Positions 11,990-43,500 of a DNA stretch of 64,000 nt are shown here, piece by piece (position 1 is the first letter of the stretch; the number at the start of each line of letters is the position of its first letter). The DNA comes from Mya arenaria. Taxonomy: Eukaryota; Mollusca; Bivalvia; Myida; Myidae. The stretch spans positions 4,481,001 through 4,545,000 of the forward strand of contig NC_069135.1 of NCBI RefSeq assembly GCF_026914265.1, written 5' to 3'. The translations under genes and the position numbers were made by a program. The notes under the pieces are model-generated. The model was not told where the DNA came from, did not search any database, and worked only from the letters and a program-made list of their open reading frames with translations.

Positions 11990-12670
11990 CATGCCTTTCA
12001 CACAGACAACATGGCGGGGATTATGTTCCATCATCAGCCCAGTCTCATCAATGTTCCAGATTAATTCAGGATGATTGTCAAGATCATGCTTCTTCATCAC
12101 CTTTTCCAGCTCTGCAAAGTACTACTTGATTGTTTCCTCTGACGTTCACTTTTCTCTGAGCACTGAGAGCTTTTGCAACTTAGCTAAGGTTACATCAGGG
12201 TTTCTTCGCTTGAAGCCAGTATACCACGAAGAAGCAAACTGTGGGTCGCTCTGCTTCTTCCGGTGAAGTGTTATTGCCCTTTCGATGGCTAGGCTAAGCA
12301 GCTCTGACTGGGTGTAACCGTATCCAAAGCTTGCCATTTATGTTAAGTGTTCAACTAACTGTCCCTCCTTCTTAGCAATAAATGAGGGTGGCTGACCACA
12401 GCTTGGTAAATTCTTATGTTCATTGGTCACTGGCTGCAATCCAAGGGTTCTATCACGCAGAGTTGACTCTGGATGCCCATACAGTACGGCTGACTTGTAC
12501 ACAGATATCCCTGATTCAGCAACCTCCTTGTATGCTTTTGCTATAAGTCCTGTGTCATACTGCCACTTCTTATTCACAGCCTTGCCAATGGTAGGTAACT
12601 GAAATGAAAGACATTTTTTTTTTTTAATTTGGGTCACAATTGATTTCAATATTGGTTTAGTTTTATTCAA
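11990..12670 (-). pseudogene. pogo/Tigger-like transposase, broken N-terminal part
   Basis: Minus strand. After an acceptor-like TTTCAG at about 12600, the frame reads WQYDTGLIAKAYKEVAESGI and YGHPESTLRDRTLG, the psq-type helix-turn-helix of pogo-group transposases. A TAA at 12338-12340 interrupts it. It continues in frame as MASFGYGYTQSELLSLAIE and SWYTGFKRRNPDVTLAKLQK, matching the CENP-B-type DNA-binding domain, until a stop at 12146-12148. Beyond that stop the same strand reads YFAELEKVMKKHDL and LIWNIDETGLMMEHNPRHVV. NIDETG carries the first catalytic Asp of the DDE_1 nuclease. A further stop lies just before YFAEL, and the rest of the nuclease is absent. A plain DNA transposon relic. 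Confidence 0.75.
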
Positions 12671-13882
12671 ACTAAATCAGAAGTTTAGTCAAGTAGCGTT
12701 GTTGCCAAACAAGAAAACCTGCCAAACAGCGCGTGGGCATGTCGCCCAGTAGTCTAAAATATTAGACGTGTTATACGGGATTCTTCCAATCCCTAACGTC
12801 TAAACGGGAATGTGCAAAAAACGGGGGTGTTTTGAAAAATATTGAAATTGTACTCAGAGAAGTATTCTATGTTTGAAATAGATAATATAGGTTGATTATG
12901 ATATTTCTTCATTTAATTGCAAAGTTATTTTGCACATAACAAGCATAAAATGCATTCAAACACAAGATTTACCTTTTCCATCAAACGAAACTTGACTGAC
13001 ACAGGCAACAATTATGCAAATTACACTTGTATAAAATACGGCTCCCAACGGTAAGTAACGGTACCCATTCTGCGTTCTTAAATTTGAACAGTAACGAGTT
13101 TCGATAGTGTTGTAGTTAGTTATTTCGATTTTAAAATTCAGTTGAGATACGTATAACTAAAATAAAATGGTTTAAACTTTTACCATGATAAGGTACACGA
13201 ACTAACAAACGAAAAATAGGTATCTTGTACATATTTTATTTGCATAAAAACGACTTTAAAAAATATACTGTAAATGGTGAAAGAAAAATAGAAAAAGTAT
13301 CACGCATACCCAAAATACACGCAGTGAGCGCGAGTTTTCGACAAGAAAATAAACAGAAAACATTATTTATTTAGAAATTTCGTCTTGGTAGCCATAATAT
13401 AAATAACATTATACAGTAAACACAAACAATGGTAAATACACAGTTACTGATCAAAATATGAAATAGCCAACAGAAAATCAAACAACCTGGGAATAAACTA
13501 CAGATTTAAGATATTTAAAAAAAGTAAAATAATCGTAGATTGAATAGTTAAAATGTATCGTTCAATATATGTTCATTTTGTCAAATCATCGGAACATATT
13601 CGTGAAAAAATGAATTTGTTAACTTTAACTCTTTAATCTGTAAGTAGAAACTAGTCGGGATAGTTCACCTATTTTTAATAACTTGCCGAAAAAGAAACAA
13701 AAGTAACTGAAGATGCTTTAATGGTGTGGTGTATATAACCCATTATTTATGAAAACATTTTACACACGTATTAAGAGCTCTATAGGTTTGAGTTTATAAA
13801 ACGTTCAGCACAAGTCATTATTTGAAATAATATGAGCGCATTTATAAATGTTTCTGAATTTCGTCAGCCTGTATTGCCATTA
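12671..13882. other. gap downstream of the DUF6589 gene
   Basis: AT-rich sequence with no gene, no clear terminal inverted repeat and no clear polyadenylation signal that I can tie to the DUF6589 gene. If the DUF6589/RecQ pair is mobile, its left end should lie here or further left. Confidence 0.35.
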
Positions 13883-16800
13883 TCAATGAGCAACTCTTCG
13901 GGCCCTGTCAAGCTTCTTCGATAATTTTGTCACTCTTTCTTGTAGTCTTGTGTAGCTAACAGAGCGCTCTGACGTGAATTTTGGGAAAGCGGAATGGTGG
14001 CGACCGCTAATTTTTCTGGTCAAGTTTTCAGGGCCCAGCAACTGCACAAAGTATTGCATGTCATCCCTTCTATTCAGCCCCTTTTGTGTGTGATGGGCGG
14101 CCTTATGGGCATCCAACAGCTCTTTATAAACATCGTCCAAGACGACCCCAACTCCACCAGCAAGTTTCCCATGCCGTTGTAACGTGAGTGGAGTAGTGTG
14201 TGGTCCAACTGATCGAATGCTCTCTGAACATAAAATGAAAATGAAGACCGTTAAGAATATGAATAATTTCAATATAAGGACTTAACAATTGTAAATTCTT
14301 ATTTGTGAAATACACATATTTACCTTTAAACTCCCTGTTTAAGAACTCGTTAACCAAGTCAGCTTCATCGTTGGAAGCATGCCCTCCTCTTATATTAACT
14401 GTCCTATTCCAGATTAGATCTTGTTGCAGTCGAGGCGGTAGAAACCCATTCACACCTGAATTATTTTGTTAGAAAAGAAAACAATTTTTTTTTAAATATT
14501 AGCAAATATAGTACATAACAAAGTAAAGTCATTCCATTCAGTGTGCGTGGGGGGGGGGGTTCATATGCGCATAAACTTACCAGCAATTAATCGGTGGGCA
14601 AGAATGAAGTACTTTGGATGATTTCTTTGAAGAAATTGCAGTAGATCTTGTTTCCAATATACTATCATCATTGGCCCGTCATTGTTTCTAACCGCGTCTC
14701 TTCTGATCAAATCATTCAAGCCACTCCACATCAGGTATTTCGAATATTCGAATTTCCTATCAACTGCCTGAAATGACCTTTCTGATTTCCCGGTCTTTGA
14801 GCAGAATTTGCTGCAGAACCACGGCTCATCTATAAACAAAATAGTCACTGAAGATTGAATATGTTTAATTACCAAATGAGAACACATGTGTTTTATTACG
14901 AACTCGCCTTAAACAAATACAAGCATTTTATAATTATAAAGTAGCTTTCGAACGTGAACACACCTTCCGCTGGTAACTGGCCTTTCTTCAGTCCTACGCA
15001 ATTGATGTGAAACCATCTTCCCCTCTTGCAGTCTGTATTTGTGCACTCTATCATGATACCTTTTTGGTTCGACTTACATGTGCAGAACTGTGTAGCAAAC
15101 TGAAAAAAAAAATGCTGTCGACTTGAAATCACCATTTCGCATAGAAATATTCCTAATATATCATAATTATATTTTCTTCATATATAACCATCACTTACCG
15201 TTCTACAATCAGAGCTGCAAAACCACTCGTCTGGAAGGTCATCCTCATCAAGTCCGCAGCAATCTGTATGGAACCATCCACCATTCTTACATTCGGAATT
15301 TTCACACTCGATCATGGGGATGTCCTCGTCAATATCTTAAAACAACGATGGTGTATCAAGTTGTAATTTATTCTGCACAATATGAACTTCGCTTCCAAAT
15401 AATACATTATTCAGGACTTTGTAAAATACGAATACCGACCTTGTCCACAAAAGCAATGCATCTCACTTCCGGCATTTTCTAAAGTCACTTCATTCCATAT
15501 GCTGTCCACAATTTCTTCAGACACCCGATTCAAGGCTATCTCGGCGTCTTCAATAGTGTCCTCCTCCATGTCGTCGATCCCTAGCAGATCCATTGCAAAC
15601 AGAACCACGTATCCTTCTGTCACGAATCTGACATAAAGAATGAGATATTAGGACATTCAATTGATTATTTTTTTTTTAATTTAAAGTACATAGAGTCAAA
15701 ATAAGGAATGAGGTTAGTTACAAGAATATGTGTGTCTATCTAAAGATAAATATTTTTTTAATCAAATATGGAACTGTTTTATTATTTTAACTCACTTCAG
15801 AAATTCAGCTACGTAGTTAAATGTCTCTGACACGTGTTTTGAAACGGACCTCTGATTGAACACGTTTTTCAAGTGAAACAGTGTTCCTTTATCACGCGCG
15901 CTTTTCCCATCAAACAATTTGTCCATTGTGTCCTGAAAGTATAAGCCAAGAAGCAGTAAATAAAAAATGTACAATTTATCCAAAAATACGATTTTCATTT
16001 TAAGTATTCTGCTTTAATTTACCTGCATCAACAACATTCTTTTATGGAATTCCTGGGCGCCCGGTTCAAGTCCCTGAAGTTTTCCAACAGCTGTTGTGGC
16101 ATTGGCCCTCGCATTCTGGGCGTCAAGATGCCTTTCACAAGACAGAGCATCCCCCCATGTAATAAGCGTGTGCACTTGATCTTCATGCTGAGGAACATAG
16201 TTGTGCAGGGTGTCTAGTATTTCTATCACACCGGCAGTTGAAGATGGGTTCGCATCTATAACACCTATGTTGAACTGATAAGAAATAAAATATTATATTA
16301 TAATCACTTTTTAAATCGCACGAGGTTTAACTTAACCATTTAATTAAAACTTCTAGAAATACTTACCATCTCGCTTTTTTGTGAGCTCTCTCTGGTGAAA
16401 TGATGCTGAAAGGAGGTGCACGGGTAATGCGCGACACTCCGAAAGGCTGCCAAATGACCGACAAGGATTCGCTGCACCATGTTGACAAGTCTCTCCCTGA
16501 CTGCATGTCGTTCTTTGTCATTTAAAAGGTACTTCTCAATGTCTATACTTTCAGCCGGTTCTACTTTCTTGTTATCAAACTGAGTTGTTTGTATTCTATT
16601 CTTGACTGCATATGCCAAAGCCCAACATTTATATTTATTTCCATGATTTCTTGTTTGATGTCTAGCCTTCACTTGTTTTCCAACGTTGTCCCAGCATAAT
16701 GTATAACCTAAAATCATTGTGTAACATTATATTTAATTACTTTATTTTAGAGACTTTTGTTAAATAGATATTGATATTTCACATGAGTATGGTCAACTTT

Positions 16801-19800
16801 TAATAAACAAAGAATTAAACTATTCTTTAACCAAAAAAACTGTGGAATTGGGAAATGTAACAGCAAATACACAGAGAGCTTGAATACCTTTTGGTACGGT
16901 GTCGTCACCATACAATATGGTAGGCTCTTCGGACTCCCGCTCCGAACTTTGAACATCATCATCATCATAATCATCCATGGCATCTTCCCACTCAGAACTT
17001 TCCTCTGGCTCAGATTCCAGCTGCGAGAAACTGCTCGTTGAAAATGAAGAGGGGTCGTCCTCAGTCTCATCCGACTGACTTACAGCCGGTGAATTAGCAG
17101 GTGGGCTGTCAGGTGTTCTGAACACATGTCTCTGCAAAGAAAATATTCCATTAATATAATATATTAAGACTTGACAAATAAATATTTTGAAATAAAACTC
17201 CGCTTGTAAGAAACTACATGGCTTAAGTAATGCATGTACAAACAAACATAGTAAAATATAAATCCTTATCTGACTAACGCATTTCAGTAGCTGTGCTTAG
17301 CGAGCTTTGCAAAAAGGCTATTACCTTGAGATCGTTCTTCCACGAGAGAAGTTCTGCATCGAATGATGCTCGTAGCTTGTCAAGCGTTGCAAACATGCTC
17401 CATTCGCCAACACATATTCCCATGTGATTGAATATGTTAAACAACTGCAATGGGAACAGTCGTATTATTACATTCTCGTTGTTATTTCGTTTCAACATAT
17501 GCAATACACTTGAGGTATTTCCTTCTCAATTGTTTGTTTTTAAACCTGAATATTGTAACATCATTCAATGAATGTCGAGTGGAAATTCTACATACACGTG
17601 AGATGAAGAGACATATTTTGAAGGAGACTTTATATGAAGTTTTAACACAGATTTTTTTCCTCTTCTTAAAATTATTCACATGCCAGTTTATATTCATTTG
17701 ATTATACGTACTGACATTTTATATAAGACTCACCGATCTTTTGCAGCCAGAACGCCACATCTGCACGGCATTCATTTTCATCAACAGGGAAGCAAGCTTG
17801 GGTTTATTTTGATATGCTATCATAGACATGATTGTACCGATGACTGGAACCAGTGAAACGTTGCCTTTTCCCCTATAAGTAATAAACGTTGTAAGTGTAA
17901 TCATCCTCGCAAACGGTTGTTAATAATATTTATTTCTCATATACGCAGAAACCAAGGGTAGGCGTAAAAGGGTGTGTGGCACAATTCCCCATATAGTTTT
18001 CGAAATGGTTCTTTTTAGCCTATTTTATTACTTTATCGTCCGGTACAGACATTAAAGTAAACATTTTAGACGATTTACGTGAATTAAAATTGTCACTGAT
18101 CACCGTTATAAAAAAACATGGAATCTACGTACCGTTTGAGTTCTTTCTCTCTGGTAGTGAGTGAAGATACGATTGCGTCGTACAGGAATGGTGCGTGTGA
18201 TTCAAAGGCTGTCAACATCTGAGCAAAGTTCATATCTTTAAATCCTGATACACTGACTGATTGTTTCACGGGAAGGGCTACATCCTTCAGCATCTGTTTC
18301 ACATCCATTCTTATCTTTCTTCTAAGCACCTTTCTCAGTGATTTCAAAGCCACTTTGGATTTTGACATGTAGTGCCTAAAGCCCTTGTCATACTTGTATG
18401 TCGCAAAGTACCTTGCGCCAGTTGTGAGATGTTCTCTTTTCTGTTAAAACGATTATAAAATCAAAATATTAGTACTTCGATAAATATCTCCATTTTTATA
18501 CACTTCATTGATTGTGTGTGCTCAGAATTACATTTCCTAATGAACAATGTAAGTATTTTATGGTAAAATTAATTTGGAGGGTTTTGAAATCATTTCCCTG
18601 GTTTTAAAGCTGAAAATTCTTATAACATAATTAAAAAAAATTATCTACAAATAAAAATAAAATTTTGGATTTAATGGAATGAAGTTTAGGAAGTGCAAAA
18701 TAAACTGACAATTAAACCTCTCGCCTACAATGACTCGTGCATATGGTTAACTAAAATGTTACGCCTTTTGTTGAACCGCGTTACTATTCAATTTAAGAGT
18801 GAACATCAAAGACAATGTTTGGGGGTAAATCAACATTATTTGAAGGCTTTCCAGTCGCAACTATTATAGTTCTAACACTGATGATGTGCCACAATTTGTT
18901 CCGTCAATATTGCTTTTTCAAAAACATAAGCGAGTCCGTATAAAAGGTCACTTTGGTATTAACCAAATACTCTAAAATGCATAGATTGAGCGAAATAAAT
19001 GGATATTATCAGTCTCTATTTTTTTTCGTAGCTAAGAATTATACGTTAAAAGACAGGTATAAGTGTCCCGACCGAAAGCAACGGCCGGGCGACTGATAAG
19101 CCCCGCCTTTATCGCTGATTGGCAAGTATCCAGCCAGTTTGACTGACAGACCATGTCATAATCGGCTTCCAATCATGCGAGACAATATTGTATGTGCCAT
19201 CCCTTCTTGAATCATTAAAGTGACTGTACTCCGTATGATGAAAGAGCGATAGAAAAAGAAAATTGTCGAAAACTGACATAATCTTGTTATCCATGTGTAC
19301 AATGCATTAAAACTTACTTACTGTAGTACCACATAGCTTACAATTAATTAATTTTTCGCAGTGTTTTTCTATTTTTCCATTAAAAAAGAATACTGGGTAT
19401 ACCGCAGTGTTTTCGTATTTTTTCCATTAAAAAAGAATACTGGGTATGTCTACTCCTTCCTTATGGGTGATTGGCTAGTCGATGTTATCACGTGATATTA
19501 AAGAGTTAGGTGTATAGCTTAATTATATCACCCGTTTACAGTAAGCCTTCGTAGCTAAGTCGCAAAAGCACTGGACTGCAAATTTGGAGACACCGGTTCG
19601 AATCCGATTTTCGTCAAAAAAAAATAATAATAATTTTGGTGTTCATTTTTACAATTATGATATCAACAAGTAAAACATTAAATAATTGTCCTGAGATTCG
19701 TTACAGAAAAAATTGTTTTGTGCCAATCTGGTGTACAGTCCCTTTAACTAATTCTTATCTTTAGAATTATGTTTGGTTTCATTACAATTATTGTAACAAA

Positions 19801-20833
19801 TATAAATTCACACCTGAAAGTCTTCGCTAATGTCCAGGTACTGCATTGCAAACCACTTATATTTTGATATGGCAGAAATGAACAACACCTAAATAACTTA
19901 TCCAAAATAAAAATGGTTTTAGTAACCCATAGTACATTTTACAAAACCAAGAGCGTGTCCCTTTAAACTTATTCAGCCGCGTCTTTGATGTCTTACATAA
20001 ACATTCGCCTGGTAGTTGTCTGTCATAAATGGGTCAAACCTACTGTATATTTATGGCAGAGTGCCAAAGCTAGATACAGGACAATGGAAGATGAAAGAAG
20101 CCGCAGATATAGTTCCGTGTGTACTTTATCCGATTGTCAGATGGATGATTGGGGGTATTCAATAATAATTTATAACAAAATATAGGTTGATGCAAAATCG
20201 TTTGTTTAAATAACTAAACTGAAAAAGATAAGCTATACATTTCTGCGCTTTACTAACCAGTAAATTTGTATAACTGTTATTGAAAATAATTAAACATTTG
20301 TAAAGGCTTTATTTTCACTTTCTATCTCTATAGTCGAATGAATTTAATATAATTATGCATTGAAAAAGGTCTTCAATGTTCGTAGCGACCATGGGTGATG
20401 ATTTTAATTGAACAGAAACTTCATGGAAAGTATTATACGCACATGTTTCTATTTATACTACATGTTCAGTTTTAGAAAATACCTTTGACTTCGGTGTGGA
20501 CGACAATCGGGGTCTCTTAGGCGTGTATGGCGTCCCAATGGGCGATGCCGATAGAGTAATCCGTCTCCTTTTAAGGCCAATATAGGAGGTCTCATCAGTC
20601 TTGCTGAACAGTTTTTCTTTAGCCTTAACACCAACACTTGCCGTCTTCAACAGTTTTTCACACTCATTACACACAAAACGCGATTCTGAACGTTTTTCAG
20701 ATTTTGGTGTGATATCAACGTTCAAAAGTATGTCTTTTATTGCACTTGTTGAAATATCTTGATTAATCAAATAGCGGCGTTTGAATCCACTTTGCTTTGA
20801 TTCAAAGCTCTTATTACAATTAGCACACTGCAT
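13883..20833 (-). CDS. DUF6589 protein with two PHD fingers, 14 exons, intact
   Basis: Exons: 20483-20833, 18133-18440, 17734-17872, 17325-17444, 16888-17131, 16367-16707, 16023-16274, 15796-15932, 15440-15627, 15199-15335, 14964-15099, 14581-14829, 14324-14455, 13883-14223. All introns have GT/AG ends and every junction keeps frame: 3,075 nt, about 1,024 residues. An N-terminal zinc-type CxxC pair (C3/C6, C55/C58) leads, with an acidic Ser-rich linker at 307-387. The DUF6589 core has CWDNVGKQVKARHQTR (D394), ITWGDALSCERHLDAQNARA (D543) and GLEPGAQEFHKRMLL. PHD finger 1 spans C689-C737 and PHD finger 2 spans C745-C794; both are C4HC3. The C-terminal block holds SNDEADLVNEF (E904). DUF6589 has no assigned function. 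PHD fingers read histone H3 tails, so chromatin binding is likely. The D, D and E motifs may form an RNase H-like site (inference). Intron 1 holds a SINE. Divergent from the RecQ-like gene. Confidence 0.9.
19357..19450. repeat. tandem duplication of about 46 bp
   Basis: Two adjacent near-copies beginning CGCAGTGTTTT and ending AAAAAAGAATACTGGGTAT, within intron 1 of the DUF6589 gene. Confidence 0.6.
19548..19640 (+). repeat. tRNA-derived SINE fragment
   Basis: CTTCGTAGCTAAGTCGCAAA supplies a degenerate A-box, and GGTTCGAATCC is a perfect B-box. The middle, CTGGACTGCAAATTTGG, resembles a tRNA-Cys anticodon arm (GCA). An A-rich tail with TAA repeats follows. The acceptor stem does not pair, so this is a SINE or tRNA pseudogene rather than a working tRNA gene. 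Confidence 0.6.
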
Positions 20834-21021
20834 CTTATTCCATTAAAATATCATAACATTTGTCAGTTTTGTCCCCGAAAACGAGGCATGCATCATCACC
20901 GCTCGACTTCCCGCGAAATTTTCGGGGCACGCGAAACTTTTCGGGACCCTTTGATCTTTCACAGAGCGCGTGGTACATCTGAGTGCGCAATTAATTATTG
21001 TTCTATAGGTTATTGGTGATA
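20834..21021. promoter_or_regulatory. 188-bp bidirectional promoter gap
   Basis: Lies between the two start codons of the DUF6589 gene (-) and the RecQ-like gene (+). It is more GC-rich than its surroundings. It holds two adjacent 18-bp near-repeats, 20913-20930 (GCGAAATTTTCGGGGCAC) and 20931-20948 (GCGAAACTTTTCGGGACC), and an E2F-like palindrome TTCCCGCGAAA at 20908-20918. E2F sites drive S-phase genes, including DNA-replication helicases. Shared control of the two genes is inferred from the spacing. Confidence 0.6.
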
Positions 21022-21683
21022 ATGGATGTTTCAAAATTATTCGGTGAAGTTAAAAAGAAATATGGATTGCAATTCGATCTTAAAGAGCATCAAATTGATA
21101 CTATAACTGCATTGTTGGATAAGAATGATGTTTCGTGTGTGCTTCCGACCGGCTACGGAAAAAGTTTGTGCTATGTGCTGCCACCACTGCTTTTGGATGA
21201 GGTATGTATGTTAATAATAACATCAAATTATGACATTTCTTTAAGCAATTCTTTTGCGTGTTTTAAACTATCTGAAACAAACAACCTAATTATATTATCA
21301 CGTGCATGAGATGTAAGAAGTTGATTTATTATTATTGGTTTGATTAGATCAGTCGACCAATGAATTCAATGCCATTCAAAGTGATCCACCGACCCCCCCC
21401 CCCCCCCCAAAAAAAAAAAAAAAAAAATGAAAAAAATAAAAAAAAAAATAAATAAATAAATAAATAAAAAATAATAGAAATAAATTAATTAATGTACTCC
21501 ATCAAGTCTTTTTGTTCCGTTTAGGTTGATGACACAGTGGAGCGGCATATTGCCCTGGTTATATCACCATTACTGAGTTTGATATCTGATCAAAAGGCAC
21601 ATCTGGACAAGTTTGGAATAAAAAGTATGATGGCGTCACATGAACATCAGATCAACCTTTCGGGTAAGTTACATAGAACCCGC

Positions 21684-21725
<42 letters not shown>

Positions 21726-23581
21726 TTATATGTAGTATATAGTTTATATTATTTATATATTTTATATATTATAAATTGTCTTGTATTGTAAAGTGTTATC
21801 ATAGAATAAAGCAGTATTGCTATTTTTAATAATTCAATATGTTTCTTCAGAGATTGGTAACACATCGCTGATATTTACTACACCTGAAACACTACAAACG
21901 TCCGCCTTCAGGAAAATTCTTGCAGCGAAGGATTTTCAGAAGAGACTTTGTCTGCTTGCGTGTGACGAGGCACACTGTGTGTCCGAATGGTAGGCTATTT
22001 TAGATATTTATTTTTATAATTCGAAATCTTAAGTGTAAATGTTTCTATTTGAAAAAAAATAAAATAATATTTTTTTTGTTACATTCGGTTGATACTACTA
22101 GGCGTACGACACATTTGAAATTTATACATACACGTATATATTTATCGCTAAAATTACATTTCATCAGGGGAGAATCATTCCGGCCTGAATATCGACATAT
22201 ATCCTCGGTACGCAGTATTGTTGACGTTCCTTTTCTTGCTGCTACGGCAACGGCGACGCAGAGAGTTCAAGATGATATAAAGGAACATCTACTACTGGCA
22301 GATGATCTTGTGACTGTCGCTGTTGTCCCTGATAGGTACATCTAACAATCCATATTAACAAACGTAGTAATGATATATTTGACTTATAGTATCATGAAGA
22401 ATAGTATTGTCTGTTCGTGTTAGTATTTTGCAAAAAAAAAAATGCTATTGGTATCCAAAGTGAAAATATAAATGTATTATATATTCTTAAAATTCACAAC
22501 ATACAAAGCAGTTCTTACACCTGAATAAACATAGTTGTTAAGCCCATGGTTGTGCCGAGTCCTGTGTAATATCAGTGTATTCGCCAGGTTTTAACTTGTA
22601 AACCAATGTTTTTACACATTTCTTCCATTTACAGACCCAGTATCTTTCTGACAGTTGAAAAATGCAGTGCTGACAATGAAAAAGAACTTCAATGGCTCCT
22701 GGACCTCTTAAAGGAAACTGACTTCAAGACCAAAACTGTTGTGTTTTGCAGGTAAATGTTCAGTAAGAACACAGCGTTTGCATATGTATGAGTTAAGATT
22801 GTTGTAAAATGGTTCAATACATACCGTGAAACATAACCATCATGGCTTTAGAATTATTTTTTTGAAAAATGTTTTTACAGTCAGATCTCGATATGCCGAT
22901 GTTTTATTTGCCTTAACCTGTTAAATATTTTGATAAAAGAACATGTTACGTGCTTTATTGGAAATAAATCACATATATATATATATTATTTTCCAAAGGT
23001 CCTACAATGCGGTGTCTTTGGTGTGGTCACATATAGTGGACAGTTTCAACATTCATCCATCAAATTCTCAGCTGCTAAAGGTGGAGATGTTCCATGCTTC
23101 AACTGACAGCATAAAAAAAGAAATGATCATTGACAGTTTCAAAAGCCCAGAGTCATACGTGAGGGTCCTGGTGTCTACTGTGGCTTTTGGCATGGGAATG
23201 TCAGTCCCGGACATCAACTTGGTGGTACACTGGGGCGCCCCGCACAATGCCCTTTCATACTGGCAAGAGGTTGGAAGGGCCGGGAGACTTGGCCAAAATG
23301 CCATAGCAGTTATGATGGCATTCCCAAGGTCACTGATGAAAACACTGACTTCCGAAGATGTACGCGAATGTGTTAAGGGAGATGTCTGCATCCGTAAAAC
23401 TATTTTGACCCGACTACTTGTAGACGGAATGGAACAAAAAGACATACCGACGACAACGCCGTGTGTCAGTTTAAGCTGTGAAAAATGCTTTTGTGAAGCT
23501 TGTCTTTGTTGCTCGGTTTGTCTTGAAGCATGCACATGTGTGGGAAAGATGAGCTCTCTGGAGAAACTTAGACTTCTGTAG
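21022..23581 (+). CDS. short RecQ-like DNA helicase, 6 exons, intact
   Basis: Exons: 21022-21201, 21525-21663, 21851-21989, 22168-22335, 22635-22751, 22999-23581. All borders are GT/AG and in phase, giving 441 residues. The ATG at 21022 is chosen because it begins MDVSKLFGEVKKKYGL, the usual RecQ helix before the Q-motif. Helicase motifs in order: Walker A PTGYGKS (42-48), motif II DEAH (145-148, in DEAHCVSEW), RecQ aromatic-loop region WGESFRPEYRH (153-163), motif III FLAATATATQ (175-184), motif V STVAFGMGM (307-315), motif VI QEVGRAGRLG (337-346; the usual form is GRAGRDG). RecQ enzymes unwind DNA 3' to 5' using ATP. The RQC and HRDC domains are absent; instead the tail (403-428) packs ten cysteines. 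It matches a multi-copy short RecQ family of invertebrates, not BLM or WRN. Divergently paired with the DUF6589 gene. Confidence 0.9.
21391..21486. repeat. poly-C/poly-A and AAAT microsatellite in intron 1
   Basis: A run of C, then a long run of A, then AAAT units, between RecQ-like exons 1 and 2. Low complexity. Confidence 0.7.
21683..21722. repeat. CA microsatellite in intron 2
   Basis: About 20 CA units directly after the donor of RecQ-like exon 2. The open frame it creates is not coding. Confidence 0.85.
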
Positions 23582-23776
23582 TGCTTAAATGTTAAACTTG
23601 TTGTCTTTCAAAGCTGTACTTGATATCTATGTGGCGTTACTACATTGACGCATTTTTCAACACGAACGCACTTAAATATGTTGATATTTTAGAAAAGCTA
23701 TTTTCACTTCTTCTGTTTGACTTTTTAAATAATTATTATCAATGTGAAACATATCTTACTGGACAGGTTAAACGAG

Positions 23777-23782
23777 AATAAA
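23777..23782 (+). other. polyadenylation signal for the RecQ-like gene
   Basis: AATAAA about 195 bp after the stop codon; the first canonical signal downstream. Confidence 0.45.
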
Positions 23783-24047
23783 AAAGTAAAACAAATTATA
23801 TAGTTGCTTGTTTTCAAGTCTAGTCCTGTTTCAAATCTAATGTTATTTGGTTACCGGAGGACCCGGAAAATGAACACGCGATACAGCACTGTTTAAACGG
23901 TTAACTGCAGCCGAGCAGGTGCCCTTCATGTATATATCGATGTGTTTTGACAGCAAGAAATGAAAAAAACACGTCAAACTCATAATTATTCGAAGGATAC
24001 GACATTTTTGTGTACGGAACTAATATAAAATAACATAATCTGGTAAT

Positions 24048-24209
24048 ATTTCTTGTTTATATGATATTTTTTAGATGTTAAATGCTTTAACCCGGAATCC
24101 TGATCGGAACAACTACCCACTTTTGATACTTAACAATTTGTACGTGAAGGATTTGCCATATAAAAAAAAAAAAAAAATCCGTGAACGTACAATTATTTGG
24201 ACTAGTCGC
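24048..24209 (+). repeat. dispersed repeat R1, copy 1
   Basis: About 160 bp, matching 41053-41208 in the opposite orientation along nearly its whole length. Shared blocks include GGAATCCTGATCGGAACAAC (one mismatch in copy 2), AACTACCCACTTTTGATACT, TTTGTACGTGAAGGATTTGC and GTACAATTATTTGGACTAG. It contains an internal inverted repeat (AATTTGTACGT against ACGTACAATT). This copy has gained a run of A. No coding content. It sits downstream of the RecQ-like gene. Confidence 0.75.
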
Positions 24210-27200
24210 CCAGGTGTGCTGTAACGTAATCAACAGGATAGACCTCAACTGTCAGAATTTGTATTTATGAATAAATCCATATTTACTCTTTGAATGTAAC
24301 ATTTAAGAAAAGAAATATAAAAAGACACATTTAAGTTGGATTTCAATGTAAAATACTGTGTTACTTACCCATAGGAACGACATATTTCTTGAAAGTTTGA
24401 AGCTAGCGTCAAGTGCGAGTTAATGTAAACAAAGGATACGGGAAGTGCTCTTCAGGAACTAGATATTCGGATTATTTGGATTTCATCGGTATTCGGTAAC
24501 CACCGTTTTTTTGTAAGGTGGGGATATATTCCATTTTGCGAAAAACTTAAGGGAGACAGCTTTATTTTTACTACTACTCTTTATAAAAACAACTCCCGGT
24601 TAATACATAATGTTTAACATGATTGCTTACATATTATTATTGTCACAATAAATAAGTCTAAAATATAAAACTAACCTTTGAAAAACACAGCCAGTCATAA
24701 AAATAACTTACATTAATGCAAACGGCCAATTTATAACAAAGGGCGGTAATCGTGCAAATATACTGTTACGCTACAATTGGACAAATTGTTTATGGTTTCA
24801 CAAACAAGAAAGTACCACTTCATTTAAAAAAAAATATTTAACAAGGACATACCCTATTCCATAATTCTATGCGTTGCCGCGCAGACACATTGCCAGTCAA
24901 CATTTTGAGGGAAAAAAAACGCAGAACAGTGAAGATCACCAAAACTGTTTACCATTTTCTTTTCGCGCGCAATTTCGATAGGCAAATCGTAAAATCAAAA
25001 ACGGTTTGGATACTGGACTTACCGAGAACGCTTTTTTACCGAAAGACGAAGATAATTACCGAAATACGCAAGAAGGTAACGGAATTACGCCTTCAAGTGT
25101 ATTTTTAATCATCCTTTTAATATGCATGTATTAATCATACGCATAAGATATGGAAAAATGATCGCTTGTAAATTATGCTAAATAGCAAGGCTAATGAAAT
25201 GAAAATGCGCGATGTGCTATTCTACTACACTAGACAAGACAATATAAATAAAAATGAAAAACTAAGAAAATAGTAAAATTAACCACTGAATGCACCATGC
25301 TTAAATATGATAATGAAGAAATATGCTGTAACTAACTTATTGTAGCGTTTCTTCCCTAGCTAGCTCGGACACGCTACCTTAAATTAAACCTGTTCTCGGA
25401 CTGCATTGTCCCAAAAATTAAGTATGAAATTAGTAATATATACAAGTGATTAACAATGATTGCTTTTAAAACCAATAATTGGAGAAATAATTATTATGGT
25501 TTCAATTAGCCCCTATTTATTTTAAGGTCAAGGACATATAAGTCTAATAAGAACTAATGTATGCAGTTTAAAAATGAAATGTTTGTCTTAAACTTCCAGA
25601 ACACTTTGGAATAATTATAAATTAGTAATTAATGTACAGGGGGCTTGATGGGTGACCCCTTTCTAGTTAATATACAATGTTATATTCTTTCCTTACATTG
25701 ATCAATACAAAATCCTTCGAATTAAACTGATATACATTTCATTAAGCTATCACATTTCTTTGAATTTAATAATATTCTATTGCATGAGAACACATTTATC
25801 AATGAGAATATCAATTTTAGCACACTATCTAAACCGACATTATAAAATCAAGCATGCAAAGGGATTGCTTCACGAGTTTTGCCAACGTTACGGCCCTATC
25901 CCGAAACGTCACATTCTATACCAAGCAGGTGTTTTATAATCAAAAACAATGCAAGTAATATCTAATCAAATTTCTTTGGAAATCATTTGCATTTTTTTAA
26001 TTTTAACCTGTTCCAGTTCCTTAAATTTAAATAAATAAATCAAGTAAGGTTAAAAAGAATATCTTTCAGAAGAAGATTATGGACAGAAAACAACCCGTAT
26101 CAAAGAGAGAAATTATACACATCATTTAGAGAGAATAACTAATTTTAAACTCAACTCAGTTTATTGCATAAAAATATACACATGCTTATAGCAAATACAA
26201 CTTAAGTTATTCAAAGGCATAAAATTAAACAATTTCAAACAGTTTTACAGAAGAGCAGAATAATATTATTATGTATATAAATAAGGCTTCTGAAGATATT
26301 TGCAAGGTAAATAAACTTGGTCAGGGTATTCAGAGATTTTGTTGATTTTACAGATGGTAAATTTACATTATTTTACTTTGTTTTGTCGCGTTTACAACAT
26401 CTTTTGTATATAATTGGCTCTAATGTCTAAATATACTGGGCATTTCAATAAATTGCGGTATTAAGGGTCATAGCTGGCCTGAATTGCACACCTTATATTC
26501 AGGCATCAATGACAGACAAATCACAAGTTACATTGTACAGAAGTGTCTGTTGTGCCTGCGAACCAGTGACCAAGTTCTTAAATCGCTATCAACATGGTTA
26601 CATGGGTCATTTATATGAGAAACATTCTCATTAAGTTTCTCGAGAATTAAGTTAAAATGTTGCCCCATAGAGTATCAAACTTCGTTTAGACAATTATTAT
26701 ACTTAGATTTTTTATCAAGATCAACACCAAATTGTGACCATTTGAGAGGCTTTCCAAGTTGCCATAGTCTTGACTAAAAACATAAGCCAGAAAGTGATTG
26801 GATAGTTTTGTAGGAGTTGACCTAGTTTTTGACACCATTTTTCAAGATCCTTTGAAATTTTATTGAGACACTAAGTATAGGTAATTATTAGGGATATTGC
26901 TCTAAAAAGTCAAACGACAATTAAAAAAGAAAACACAAATGGTCATTTAACTATCTAAGTAGCAAATATTGCTCACATGAAGTTAACTACATAATAATAT
27001 AACTTAAAATCAATTTAGATCACAAGTTTGTCTATGGAAATGACCTACACATGGTATCAAAAAAAAGTTTTTAACAATATGACTTCGTAGATTCTGAAGC
27101 TTGATTGTATAAAAAAGGTTACACAACAACTAAAACAACGGATTTTTTTTAATGAATATCGGATAGACACTTTCATATGGAAGGGTATTGATGAAAACGT

Positions 27201-28598
27201 TACATCTTGCTTTCTGACATTTACATCGTCTTGCTTTCTGACAATTACATATTGGCTTATTGAATCCTTAATTCGTCAAATGTCGTTAAAAGTTATATAG
27301 GCCATCATGCTTGATGCTAAATTCCCTTTAGTGTACATGTATAAAATTGTGTAAGTTATTACCGAAGTTGCGATAATCTGTTACATATGATTAGATACAG
27401 AAAATTTATATTCTACTAAAAACCAAAGGGCACATTTAAGCCAGCACATTGCTACATGCCACGAAGATGCATGTAAAACAGCTTTTTTTTGGCATCAGAG
27501 GGCGCAAGTTCGGAACCGACGGAAACTCTCGACCAGAAGCTACCCGTGACCGTTCCGTATTCTAAAAACTACTTTTGACAATTCAGTGTCTTGTTAAAGC
27601 AAAGACACCTAGTATAATATAAATATTGACTGCATTGGGGTGACAGTGCATGCCAACCTGAGGAATATACTGTCGAACCAGGCGAAGTCGAGGTGGTTAG
27701 TTTTTTCAGAAGGTCGATAATATGCTCAGTCACCCTCAAGGCAGTTGATATCTCAGTCACCCTCAAGGCAGTTGATATCTCAGTCACCCTCAAGGCAGTT
27801 GATATCTATTTAATCATACCGAACAAAACTATAGAATTCTAAAGTATTCGATTAAAAAATAATAAATAATTTTCACTGACAGCTGCATATATTGCTGCCA
27901 TTTTTGCAACAATTGTCGGCTGGTAAACCTTTATCCCTGCATTTTTAAATTAGCATTGATTGATTGAAAGTGTTTTTCAATTACATGTCCATTGTGTCAT
28001 TTTGATGACTATACCTTTGTGTCAAATTATTTCGCAAACAAGATAATGTTATTCAACATATCGAAATAATTACAATGAAGTATTTTTTGTCAATTTTAAA
28101 AGACAAAGAAACAATAATAGCAAAATTCTCTTTATGGGTACCAGTTTTCGTCGGGTATTGTATTTCAGTGTGAAAGAGAACCTATAGATCTAAATCACTC
28201 AGTTGAAAGGAATTTCGGTGGTTATTACTTTTTGTTTTTAAACTACGGCGTCGATTATATGGTTGAGATTGGATATCTGTAGATATATGATTGCATATCT
28301 GAATGTTTGAATATGTGTTTAAAACAAAACCATGAGGACTATGTTAGATTTATAGTACCGTGCATTAAAAATGGTATTGCATAATTATTCAGAGTAAACA
28401 TTTTAAACTATTTTCAAGGGACGCAGTAGCTTCACCAAAGACACATATGCAATAGAAGGATTATAATCTATAGTATATTCGGACATATCAAATCATACCT
28501 TTGGTCTTATACCAGTCACCGCTAAAACAAGTTTACTGTTATAAGCTACATGTACCAGAAATTGCGTCAAAGAAAAACTGATAGGATGGAAACAATTA
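24210..28598. other. 4.4 kb with no recognised gene
   Basis: AT-rich throughout. No domain-bearing frame or convincing exon found on either strand. Only a small tandem repeat at 27725-27806 stands out. It could hold distal exons or untranslated sequence that cannot be recognised by eye. Confidence 0.4.
27725..27806. repeat. 27-bp tandem triplication
   Basis: Three perfect or near-perfect copies of a 27-bp unit beginning CTCAGTCACCCTCAAGGCAG. Being a multiple of three it leaves a spurious open frame on the minus strand. Confidence 0.85.
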
Positions 28599-40501: not shown

Positions 40502-43500
40502 ATGGCGTCGCATGTGTTTCGTAAACTGTTCCTTTTAAATAAATCGCCGGTTTCGGCGCAGTACGGTGCCAATGTTTGCATTAGGAACTTGTGCGTGTCG
40601 GCGACACTTCGGTTTGCAACTCCTGGCCCCCCGGTTGCTGGGAAGGCGACGTTTAAGCGCGACAAACCTCATATTAACATAGGAACTGTCGGTCACGTTG
40701 ATCATGGCAAAACGACCTTGACAGCAGCAATAACAAAAGTGCTCGAAGAAAAGAAAATGGCAAAGTTTATGAAGTATGAAGACATAGACAAGAATCCAGA
40801 GGAGAAAGCTAGAGGAATCACCATCAATGCCACCGTTGTTGATTACGAAACTGACAGTCGCCATTATGGCCATGTTGACTGCCCTGGGCATGCTGATTAC
40901 ATAAAAAACATGATCACTGGTACACACACATTATTTAATTTAAACTGTGTCGACATAATCATTCCCATCATATTTATAAGTATGACAAAAATGCCTGACT
41001 TCCTTCATTAATAAATGATCATTATTATGGAGGCTTTACTCTCATCAGAGTTGCGTCTAGTCCAAATAATTGTACGTTGACAGATAGATTTTTGATATGG
41101 CAAATCCTTCACGTACAAATTGTTTAGTATCAAAAGTGGGTAGTTGTTCCGATCAGGATTCTGGGTTAAAGCATATAGCGTCTATAAAATATCATAAAAT
41201 CAAGAAATAATATGAATCATATTAAAAATTAGCTAATCCATATGTCGTTTGTTGGTATAAAATTAGTTAGATGACAAAAGGTCATTACAGTTAGCCAAGT
41301 ATTTGTACCTACAGATTAATTACATTATGGAGTAAATCTATTGAGGCCCCTTTGGTCAAGGTCATGGTAACTATAAATAAAAAAGGGTAAGAACTTCAGT
41401 TGGGGTTGACTAAATTTGGTACTTAGGAAGATTTTATTGGGACCTTTCAAGGGATTGGGGTTTGATGCCCCTGGGATCACGGTCAAGGTAGCTTGTACCA
41501 TTTAAAAACAAAAAGTTTTGAACTGAATCTCACTTCAAAAGCTGAAGTTCTTCTAACAACAGTTTTTTTTCGGTATTTTGGGAATATGACCTATACCCGT
41601 GAGATTGGGAATTTTCGCGTCAATTTTGGCAAAATTAGGAAATTCTTCATAAAACCATCCTGACCAGGATACTATATTACATACATGTCATATTTTTTAA
41701 AAACTCCACAGGGGATTTGTTTAGAATATCAGGAGATTTGGGTCACATACCAGGGGATTTTCATTATCGCCATGAAGTGCTTTGGGGCATGTGCCAATTC
41801 ACTTTGTTTAACCCCTTAATTATTATTTCTATGAGAAACTGTCATATTGCATTATAAAATTATTTTTAATAAAAAGACAATTTGATAGCCTTAAATTGGA
41901 TACAAAATGTGCTATCTATTAAAAATAGACCTGTTTTGCAATTGAACAAAAGCAAATGAATATTTTTTTGTAAAATTTCATCAACTTGTTTCCTTTTGTC
42001 ATTCAACAAAAATTAAATGCACCATCATTATTAATAAATAAAGACTTGTTCATTTCACCGGGTTGTCTACTTTCAGTTTCACTTCTCAGTTCTGTCATAT
42101 TCTGATATTGGCAATGAAGGTCAATGTCATGTATGTGAGGCATGACAAAGAACAGCATTGTCTATTAGTTATTTTAATCCCCTTCTGCGCCGAATCATTT
42201 ACTGTCAACTTTAAATTATTATGCCCCCTTCAAAGAAAAGGGGTATATTGCTTTGCATAGGCATGTCGGTCGGTCCGTCTGTAGACCAAAGCTTGTCCGA
42301 GTGATAACTTAACGATTCCTGGATATATGGTCATCAAACTTGACATGAAGTAGATGACCAGTAGATGCTTCCTATTGATTTTAGGGCTCATCAGGTCAAA
42401 GGTCAAGGTCACAGTGACCTTTAATGGTAAAATAATTTTAAAGCTTGTCCGAGTGATAACTCAACAATGCCTACACCTATGGTCATCATACTTGATATGG
42501 GACTTGGTCCTGACCAGTAGATGACCCCTATTGTTTTTGGGGGTCATAGTGCCAAAGGTCAAGGTCACAGTGACCTTTAATGGTAAAAAGTTGATTGTGT
42601 GGAAACTCGACAATGCCTGCACTCATGGCCCTCAAACTTGACTTGGAGGTTGGGCCTGACCATTAGATGACCCCTATTGTTTTTGGGGGTTCATCGGGCC
42701 AAAGGCCAAGGTCATAATGACCTTGAATGGATAAAGGTTGTCCCAGGGATAACTCGACAATGCCTGCACCCATGGCCCTCAAACTTAACTTGGAGATTGG
42801 GCCTGACCAGTAGATGGCCCCTATTGATTTTAGGGGTCATAAGGTCAAGGTCACAGTGACCTTGAATGATTAAAGAATATCCGAGTGATAACTCAACAAT
42901 GCCTATACCCATGGCCCTCAAACTTGACTTTGAGGTTGTGCCTGACCAGAAGATGACCCCTCTTGATATTATGGGTCAAACAAGGTCACAGTGACCTTCA
43001 ATGCAAAGTCAACAATTCCTGGACGTATGGTCATCAAACTTGACATGAAGGTTTGGCCTAACCAGTAGATGACCCCTCTTGACTTTGGGGGTCATCGGGC
43101 CAAGGTCAGGGTCACAGTAACCTTTAAAGCAAAATAGTAAACAAATCTTCTCCCAGGGATATCTCAACAATGCCCGAACGTATGATCATCAAACGACATG
43201 GAAGTTTGGCCTGACCAGAGGATGACCCTGATTTTAGGATTTTAGGAGTCATCGGGTCAAATGTTTCATGTGATAACTCGACAATGCCTGCATCCATGGC
43301 TCTCAAACTTGTCTTGGAGTTGCGTCTGACCTGTAGATGACCCCTTATAATTTTTATGGGTCATAGGTCAAGGTCACAGTGACCTTGAACGAAAAAAGCT
43401 TGTCTGTGTGATAACTTGTCAATGCCTGCACCCATGGCCCTCAAACTTGACATTTAGATTTTTGTTGATCAGCTAATGACTCCTGGATTTAGAAGGTCAT

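Follow-up and report, generated by a model that had tools for sequence, protein, structure and literature searches.

A head-to-head DUF6589 and RecQ-like helicase gene pair of Mya arenaria lies within a DNA transposon, very probably of the AcademH kind

We analysed a stretch of 64,000 nucleotides of the genome of the bivalve Mya arenaria (contig NC_069135.1, positions 4,481,001 to 4,545,000; hereafter the window), in which a RecQ-like helicase gene and a gene encoding a DUF6589 protein lie on opposite strands. Both genes were rebuilt from the window sequence by looking for GT-AG pairs within 12 bases of the ends of open stretches. A frame-keeping pair was present at all 18 splice junctions and neither gene contained an internal stop. 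The rebuilding bore out the arrangement proposed in an earlier inspection of the letters alone (the sequence-only reading), namely a head-to-head pair of 6 and 14 exons joined in phase, with 188 base pairs (bp) between the two start codons. From its position, this shared upstream region is presumed to act as a bidirectional promoter for both genes. Pfam matched DEAD (E 5.8e-23) and Helicase_C (E 1.2e-18) in the helicase, and its best solved relatives included WRN, RecQ (4tmu) and the helicases Q5 and Q1; as these aligned within residues 10-359, the protein corresponds to a short RecQ-like core. Its partner of 1024 amino acids matched DUF6589 over residues 446-948 (E 5.3e-29) and PHD below the cut-off (E 3.4e-4, 21 bits for a cut-off of 24). 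The features of the locus are collected in Table 1.

A protein search of the window's own genome (1.216 Gb, 18 contigs) led to the recovery of a second close copy on contig 10 (C10), with the helicase in the same head-to-head layout. When the flanks of the two copies were compared, similarity began at 12750 and ended at 24204, which delimits an element of 11,455 bp with the 9-bp repeat GTCGCCCAG on either side. At the same boundary points the contig-10 copy carries a different 10-bp repeat, TACACGAGTA, on both sides. The ends adjoining the duplications begin TAGTC in both copies, and the two window termini, TAGTCTAAAATATTAG and TAGTCCAAATAATTGT, match at 11 of 16 bases. Being short and imperfect, they were overlooked by eye in the sequence-only reading, which reported no terminal repeats and took the gene pair itself as the unit; the pair stands, and the true unit is larger. 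Inverted-repeat scans of the region gave AT-rich or simple pairs, not true ends, among the 25 longest of 89 and of 497, and the ends were revealed by comparing copies. The two copies are 97.9% identical over 10,945 aligned bases. In the contig-10 copy the transposase is broken: three of its exons have single-base gaps, another has a 6-base insertion and a further one a 9-base gap. The helicase, as aligned, lacks 21 bases of exon 1, 125 of exon 3 and 1 of exon 6. The ratio of non-synonymous to synonymous substitution rates (dN/dS, Nei-Gojobori count), a comparison suggested in the earlier reading, stood at 0.40 over 391 helicase codons and at 0.53 over 1016 transposase codons; both values are below 1 and are weak evidence of constraint, since one copy is broken and the changes are few.

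A 300-base query made of the two window flanks around a single copy of the duplication was then used to search the genome across the join. It matched at four other places, over the full 300 bases in C16 (84% identity), over 35-300 in C6 (83%), over 35-220 in C9 (88%) and over the full length in C5 (69%). The C16, C6 and C9 paralogues were retrieved and aligned, and in each of them the sequence runs on across the insertion point, lacking the 11 kb. All three places belong to a dispersed repeat whose copies have diverged, and they are not alleles of the window site.

Six more loci with the divergent pair were scanned, in their flanks, for a 9-10 base repeat adjoining ends that begin TA. Together with the window and the contig-10 copy, target duplications of 9-10 bp were found at seven of eight divergent loci (the window, C10, C6, C1, C5, C17 and C3; not C12), so that the shared ends and target-site duplications which the sequence-only reading had recommended looking for do exist between copies. 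The duplicated sequences are GGTACCAGGG (10 bases) in C6, GGGCCTTACC (10 bases) in C1, ATCTTATCT (9 bases) in C5, CCCGTTGGT (9 bases) in C17 and AGTACATTCA (10 bases) in C3. C6, C1 and C5 have identical 20-base terminal repeats, TAGTCATTCTAAAATGCCGT, and the short derivatives at C1 and C5 retain C-terminal parts of the transposase and helicase genes. C3 and C17 have ends in common, which read TAGCTACAATAATGAGCGAT next to the transposase gene and TAGTCCACC next to the helicase gene, with one base differing further inward.

To look at linkage genome-wide, 46 transposase/DUF6589 clusters and 73 helicase clusters were assembled from the genome match lists, which held the best 45 of 143 candidates for the transposase search and the best 95 of 338 for the helicase search. 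The rows used were 37 of 71 for the transposase (further exons of clusters already present being omitted), 45 of 45 for DUF6589 and 95 of 95 for the helicase; four Helicase_C rows, picked by hand, were added, and one of the linked clusters (C6:76.63M) depends on one of them. An opposite-strand RecQ-like helicase was present within 12 kb of 32 of the 46 DUF6589 clusters (divergently in 9 cases, convergently in 23 and never on the same strand), for a chance expectation of about 0.0014 per cluster. Many of these clusters are copies of one another and are therefore not independent events; the link is nevertheless seen in several distinct families. One convergent family comprises six loci (L062-L067, on C10, C11, C15, C6, C5 and C8) that are at least 99% identical over most of 3.8 kb, and recent activity or recent duplication of this family is probable. 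Similarity among L062-L067 extends to or near the limits of the compared stretches, so that no ends could be placed for the convergent families. A search of viral contigs found no intronless relative. Matches of the window's helicase family were also seen clustered at C5:18624811-18697703 and C5:64068287-64096114, many with internal stops and at a spacing of about 8-20 kb, and are perhaps tandem duplications of dead elements.

Short relatives of the element were recovered with a 200-base search using the helicase-side end, which gave 728 candidates; the 40 listed were 93-100% identical and included the window and contig-10 copies. Three short copies from the top of these 40 all had both ends, with duplications identical at 10/10 bases in two and 9/10 in one. 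L083 (C13) is 688 bp long, 317 bases resembling the helicase-side end (89%) and 275 the transposase-side end (82%), and is flanked twice by ATGGCGAAAC; L086 (697 bp) is flanked twice by AGGACCAATA; L085 has both ends as in L083 and L086 and the 9/10 duplication. The 26-base short-element version of the helicase-side terminus, allowing at most two mismatches, occurs 1,422 + 1,458 = 2,880 times in the genome, for 0 occurrences of the backward-read control, and three of these sites proved to hold complete short elements. The short copies may have been moved by the 11.5 kb element. The window itself holds the truncated helicase-side end of one such short relative, whose second end was not found. 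A 10-base match, GAGTTGCGTC, at 43317 was considered as its second duplication and rejected, because no TAGTC-like end adjoins it and because it is on the far side of a tandem array, within sequence resembling the array unit. This array (147-bp unit, 42438-42965) lies some way on from the truncated end.

The window, C3, C17 and C6 proteins were combined in an anchored alignment from which a profile was built. It matched the convergent-family pieces L080, L081, L082 and L062 with E-values of 6e-18 to 4e-12, and the helicase, used as a control, with an E-value of 5, these values being for a database of five sequences. Residues D394, D543 and E904 are invariant in the four proteins, along with a further 30 D or E positions, and the same residue is found in every convergent piece that covers each position. 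We propose D394-D543-E904 as a candidate DDE triad, in which case the term 'nuclease-like' used for this protein in the sequence-only reading would hold if taken to mean a DDE transposase.

Between D543 and E904 lies a pair of ING-like PHD fingers. The closest solved relatives of finger 1 are YNG1, then PHF2, and those of finger 2 are ING2 and other INGs. PHD fingers of the ING class read histone H3 trimethylated at lysine 4 (H3K4me3). The ING-aligned M and W, at positions which we take to form the H3K4me3 cage, are kept in both fingers; the residue preceding the first cysteine is Y in the INGs shown, F in finger 2 and H in finger 1. In the convergent-family proteins L080 and L081, no PHD match was found at E-values up to 1, and the profile alignment skips the PHD stretch; with two convergent-type relatives lacking a PHD match, the reader may be a gain of the divergent lineage. 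The PHD pair would most likely direct integration toward particular chromatin. A more doubtful extension, which we put forward tentatively, is that a built-in reader of active-promoter chromatin guides to open promoters both the element and the short relatives, in which its terminus is found at 2,880 places.

These features were compared with those of known helicase-encoding elements. Helitrons encode a helicase, as does the window element within its boundaries, but they are not known to leave a target duplication, and the nuclease of AcademX elements is of the XPG type. No domain of this type was matched by Pfam in either window protein, and none of the five XPG_I matches in this genome lay near a DUF6589 match. 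The available text of PMC10045372 describes AcademH as a helicase-encoding transposon lineage with duplications of 9 or 10 bp, and its sister lineage in the same superfamily, AcademX, as having 3 or 4, a difference related there to helicase versus nuclease. The 9-10 bp duplications found here at seven of eight divergent loci and at the three short copies (one 9/10 identical) agree with the former and differ from the latter. The title of the founding AcademH paper (Kojima 2020, Mob DNA 11:15), as cited in the parts available of PMC10045372 and PMC10799480, names animals and fungi as hosts. Fungal AcademH are low-copy according to the excerpt of PMC10799480, in contrast to the 2,880 occurrences, in the clam genome, of a terminus shared with short elements. 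For Helitrons, the excerpts at hand give an HUH nuclease/Y1 transposase in place of DDE. Helicase and duplication length together correspond to the description of AcademH, so that the element is mobile and very probably of a known kind. We conclude that the window pair very probably belongs to a complete AcademH-kind cut-and-paste DNA transposon, a new member of a kind described in animals and fungi. The element is real, complete and mobile, and ordinary in kind; less expected are the pair of ING-like PHD fingers set within the transposase domain and the abundance of short, internally deleted elements. The name DUF6589 was not found in the literature searched. This Pfam 'family of unknown function' thus gains a likely role, as the probable transposase of helicase-carrying transposons in the families examined here, and if the element is an AcademH, the earlier statement that neither gene has an assigned role fails for the pair, a helicase-encoding lineage with the same duplication lengths having been published (PMC10045372, available text).

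The element could instead be a DNA transposon of another or unnamed superfamily that gained its RecQ-like helicase independently. In the part available of PMC9587614, KolobokH, reported only from fungi, carries RecQ, and Kolobok-1_CCri has a RecQ helicase on the strand opposite to the transposase, as in the window; transposons have therefore gained helicases more than once, and kinship with Academ is judged here from described features and not from protein sequence. Kolobok duplications, according to the same excerpt, are TTAA, of 4 bp, whereas those found here are of 9-10 bp and not TTAA, a length that fits AcademH. We regard an origin in another superfamily as unlikely, and Kolobok and Helitron were both rejected on duplication type.

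Two further explanations do without a transposon. A domesticated host gene pair, serving genome maintenance or defence against other elements, would agree with both window genes being open where the contig-10 copy is broken and with dN/dS values below 1. Low dN/dS over 2% divergence, however, fits a recently active element too; moreover, the window copy keeps both ends and an exact duplication, differs from the other copy at about 2% of bases and sits in a dispersed repeat, and such pairs recur at many places. Domestication is thus very improbable, and of the 'self-mobilising or anti-element' system envisaged in the sequence-only reading, the self-mobilising part is supported by recurrent pairs, duplications and shared boundaries, while the anti-element or DNA-maintenance part found no support. 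That two unrelated genes came to lie head to head by chance has nothing in its favour beyond both being multi-copy, and is contradicted by the linkage of 32 of the 46 clusters, all opposite-strand, for 0.0014 expected per cluster; its probability is negligible. Within the window's own genome, the one searched, the pair is neither confined to a single locus nor usually unlinked, and with duplications at seven of eight loci its copies do share boundaries.

Several points weigh against the assignment to AcademH, or against parts of it. Membership fits by described features (helicase and duplication length), not by the sequence of an Academ transposase. The element-free sites share 83-88% identity with the window flanks, and the bases of the target are not the same in them. 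At C3 and C17 the transposase-side ends begin TAGC, not TAGTC; the match accepted for C17 was the second in the automatic list, chosen because its ends agree with those of C3, the first having unrelated ends. The flanks of C12 gave no duplication, and its true ends may be outside the stretches scanned. Eight of the nine divergent pairs were covered, the ninth (C5:64.086M) being left out. Among the matches listed, 14 of the 46 DUF6589 clusters have no helicase within 12 kb, which is not proof of absence as the lists hold the best 45 of 143 and 95 of 338. Finally, the closest copy, on contig 10, has frameshifts and a damaged helicase gene, so that present activity is unproven.

The ends, duplications, related element-free sites, repeated copies and short derivatives keeping the ends were observed, and beside them we propose the following mechanism for the AcademH-like element. 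The minus-strand gene would provide a DDE transposase (DUF6589) that binds the TAGTC ends, cleaves the DNA there and links the freed ends to a target cut in staggered fashion, which would produce the 9-10 bp duplications. Transposition would proceed by cut-and-paste rather than copying. The plus-strand RecQ-like helicase may open the duplex at the ends or at the gap, either while the element is excised or once it has been joined, and may help to resolve the joined intermediate, and the PHD pair would bind histone tails. The window copy could still be active. With two uninterrupted genes, termini placed to the base and many short relatives, the element makes the helicase step and a possible choice of target by the PHD pair testable.

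Table 1. Features of the transposon, its genes and related loci (positions in the window, except for the other divergent loci, which are given on their own contigs).
Feature	Position	Strand	Basis or remark
Whole transposon, 11,455 bp	12750..24204	.	similarity bounds against contig-10 copy; duplication; element-free site in 3 paralogous places
Left target-site duplication GTCGCCCAG	12741..12749	.	9/9 identical to 24205-24213
Right target-site duplication GTCGCCCAG	24205..24213	.	9/9 identical to 12741-12749
Transposase-side terminus TAGTCTAAAATATTAG	12750..12765	+	copy comparison; related end in short copies L083, L085, L086
Helicase-side terminus TAGTCCAAATAATTGT	24189..24204	-	copy comparison; 26-base short-element version counted genome-wide
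DUF6589 transposase gene	13883..20833	-	14 exons, 1024 amino acids; rebuilt exons and Pfam
Shared upstream region, 188 bp, presumed bidirectional promoter	20834..21021	.	position only
RecQ-like SF2 helicase gene	21022..23581	+	6 exons, 441 amino acids; rebuilt exons, Pfam and solved relatives
D394 codon (WDN motif), proposed catalytic residue 1	16688..16690	-	invariant in four; D in L082, low alignment confidence
D543 codon (GD motif), proposed catalytic residue 2	16149..16151	-	invariant in four; D in L080, L081, L082
E904 codon (ADLVNEFLN), proposed catalytic residue 3	14346..14348	-	invariant in four; E in L080, L081, L062
Two ING-like PHD fingers, residues ~688-794, within DUF6589 match	14801..15458	-	Pfam and solved relatives
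Truncated helicase-side end of related short element	41058..41212	+	contig-10 end 90%, L083 92%
Divergent locus C6	26399383-26412285		10-base duplication
Divergent locus C1	11807360-11811124		10-base duplication; short derivative
Divergent locus C5	26962251-26965127		9-base duplication; short derivative
Divergent locus C3	62995718-63007247		10-base duplication
Divergent locus C17	30239643-30256357		9-base duplication

Outside the transposon, two minus-strand open reading frames at 12146-12676 weakly matched HTH_psq and HTH_Tnp_Tc5, with scores under the cut-offs, which would suit a decayed pogo-like element beside which the transposon inserted. Three open reading frames between 8934 and 11416 gave no Pfam match above the cut-off, and the broken MULE transposase noted in the sequence-only reading stays a candidate. 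On the other side of the element, three perfect copies of a 27-bp tandem unit were seen at 27725-27807.

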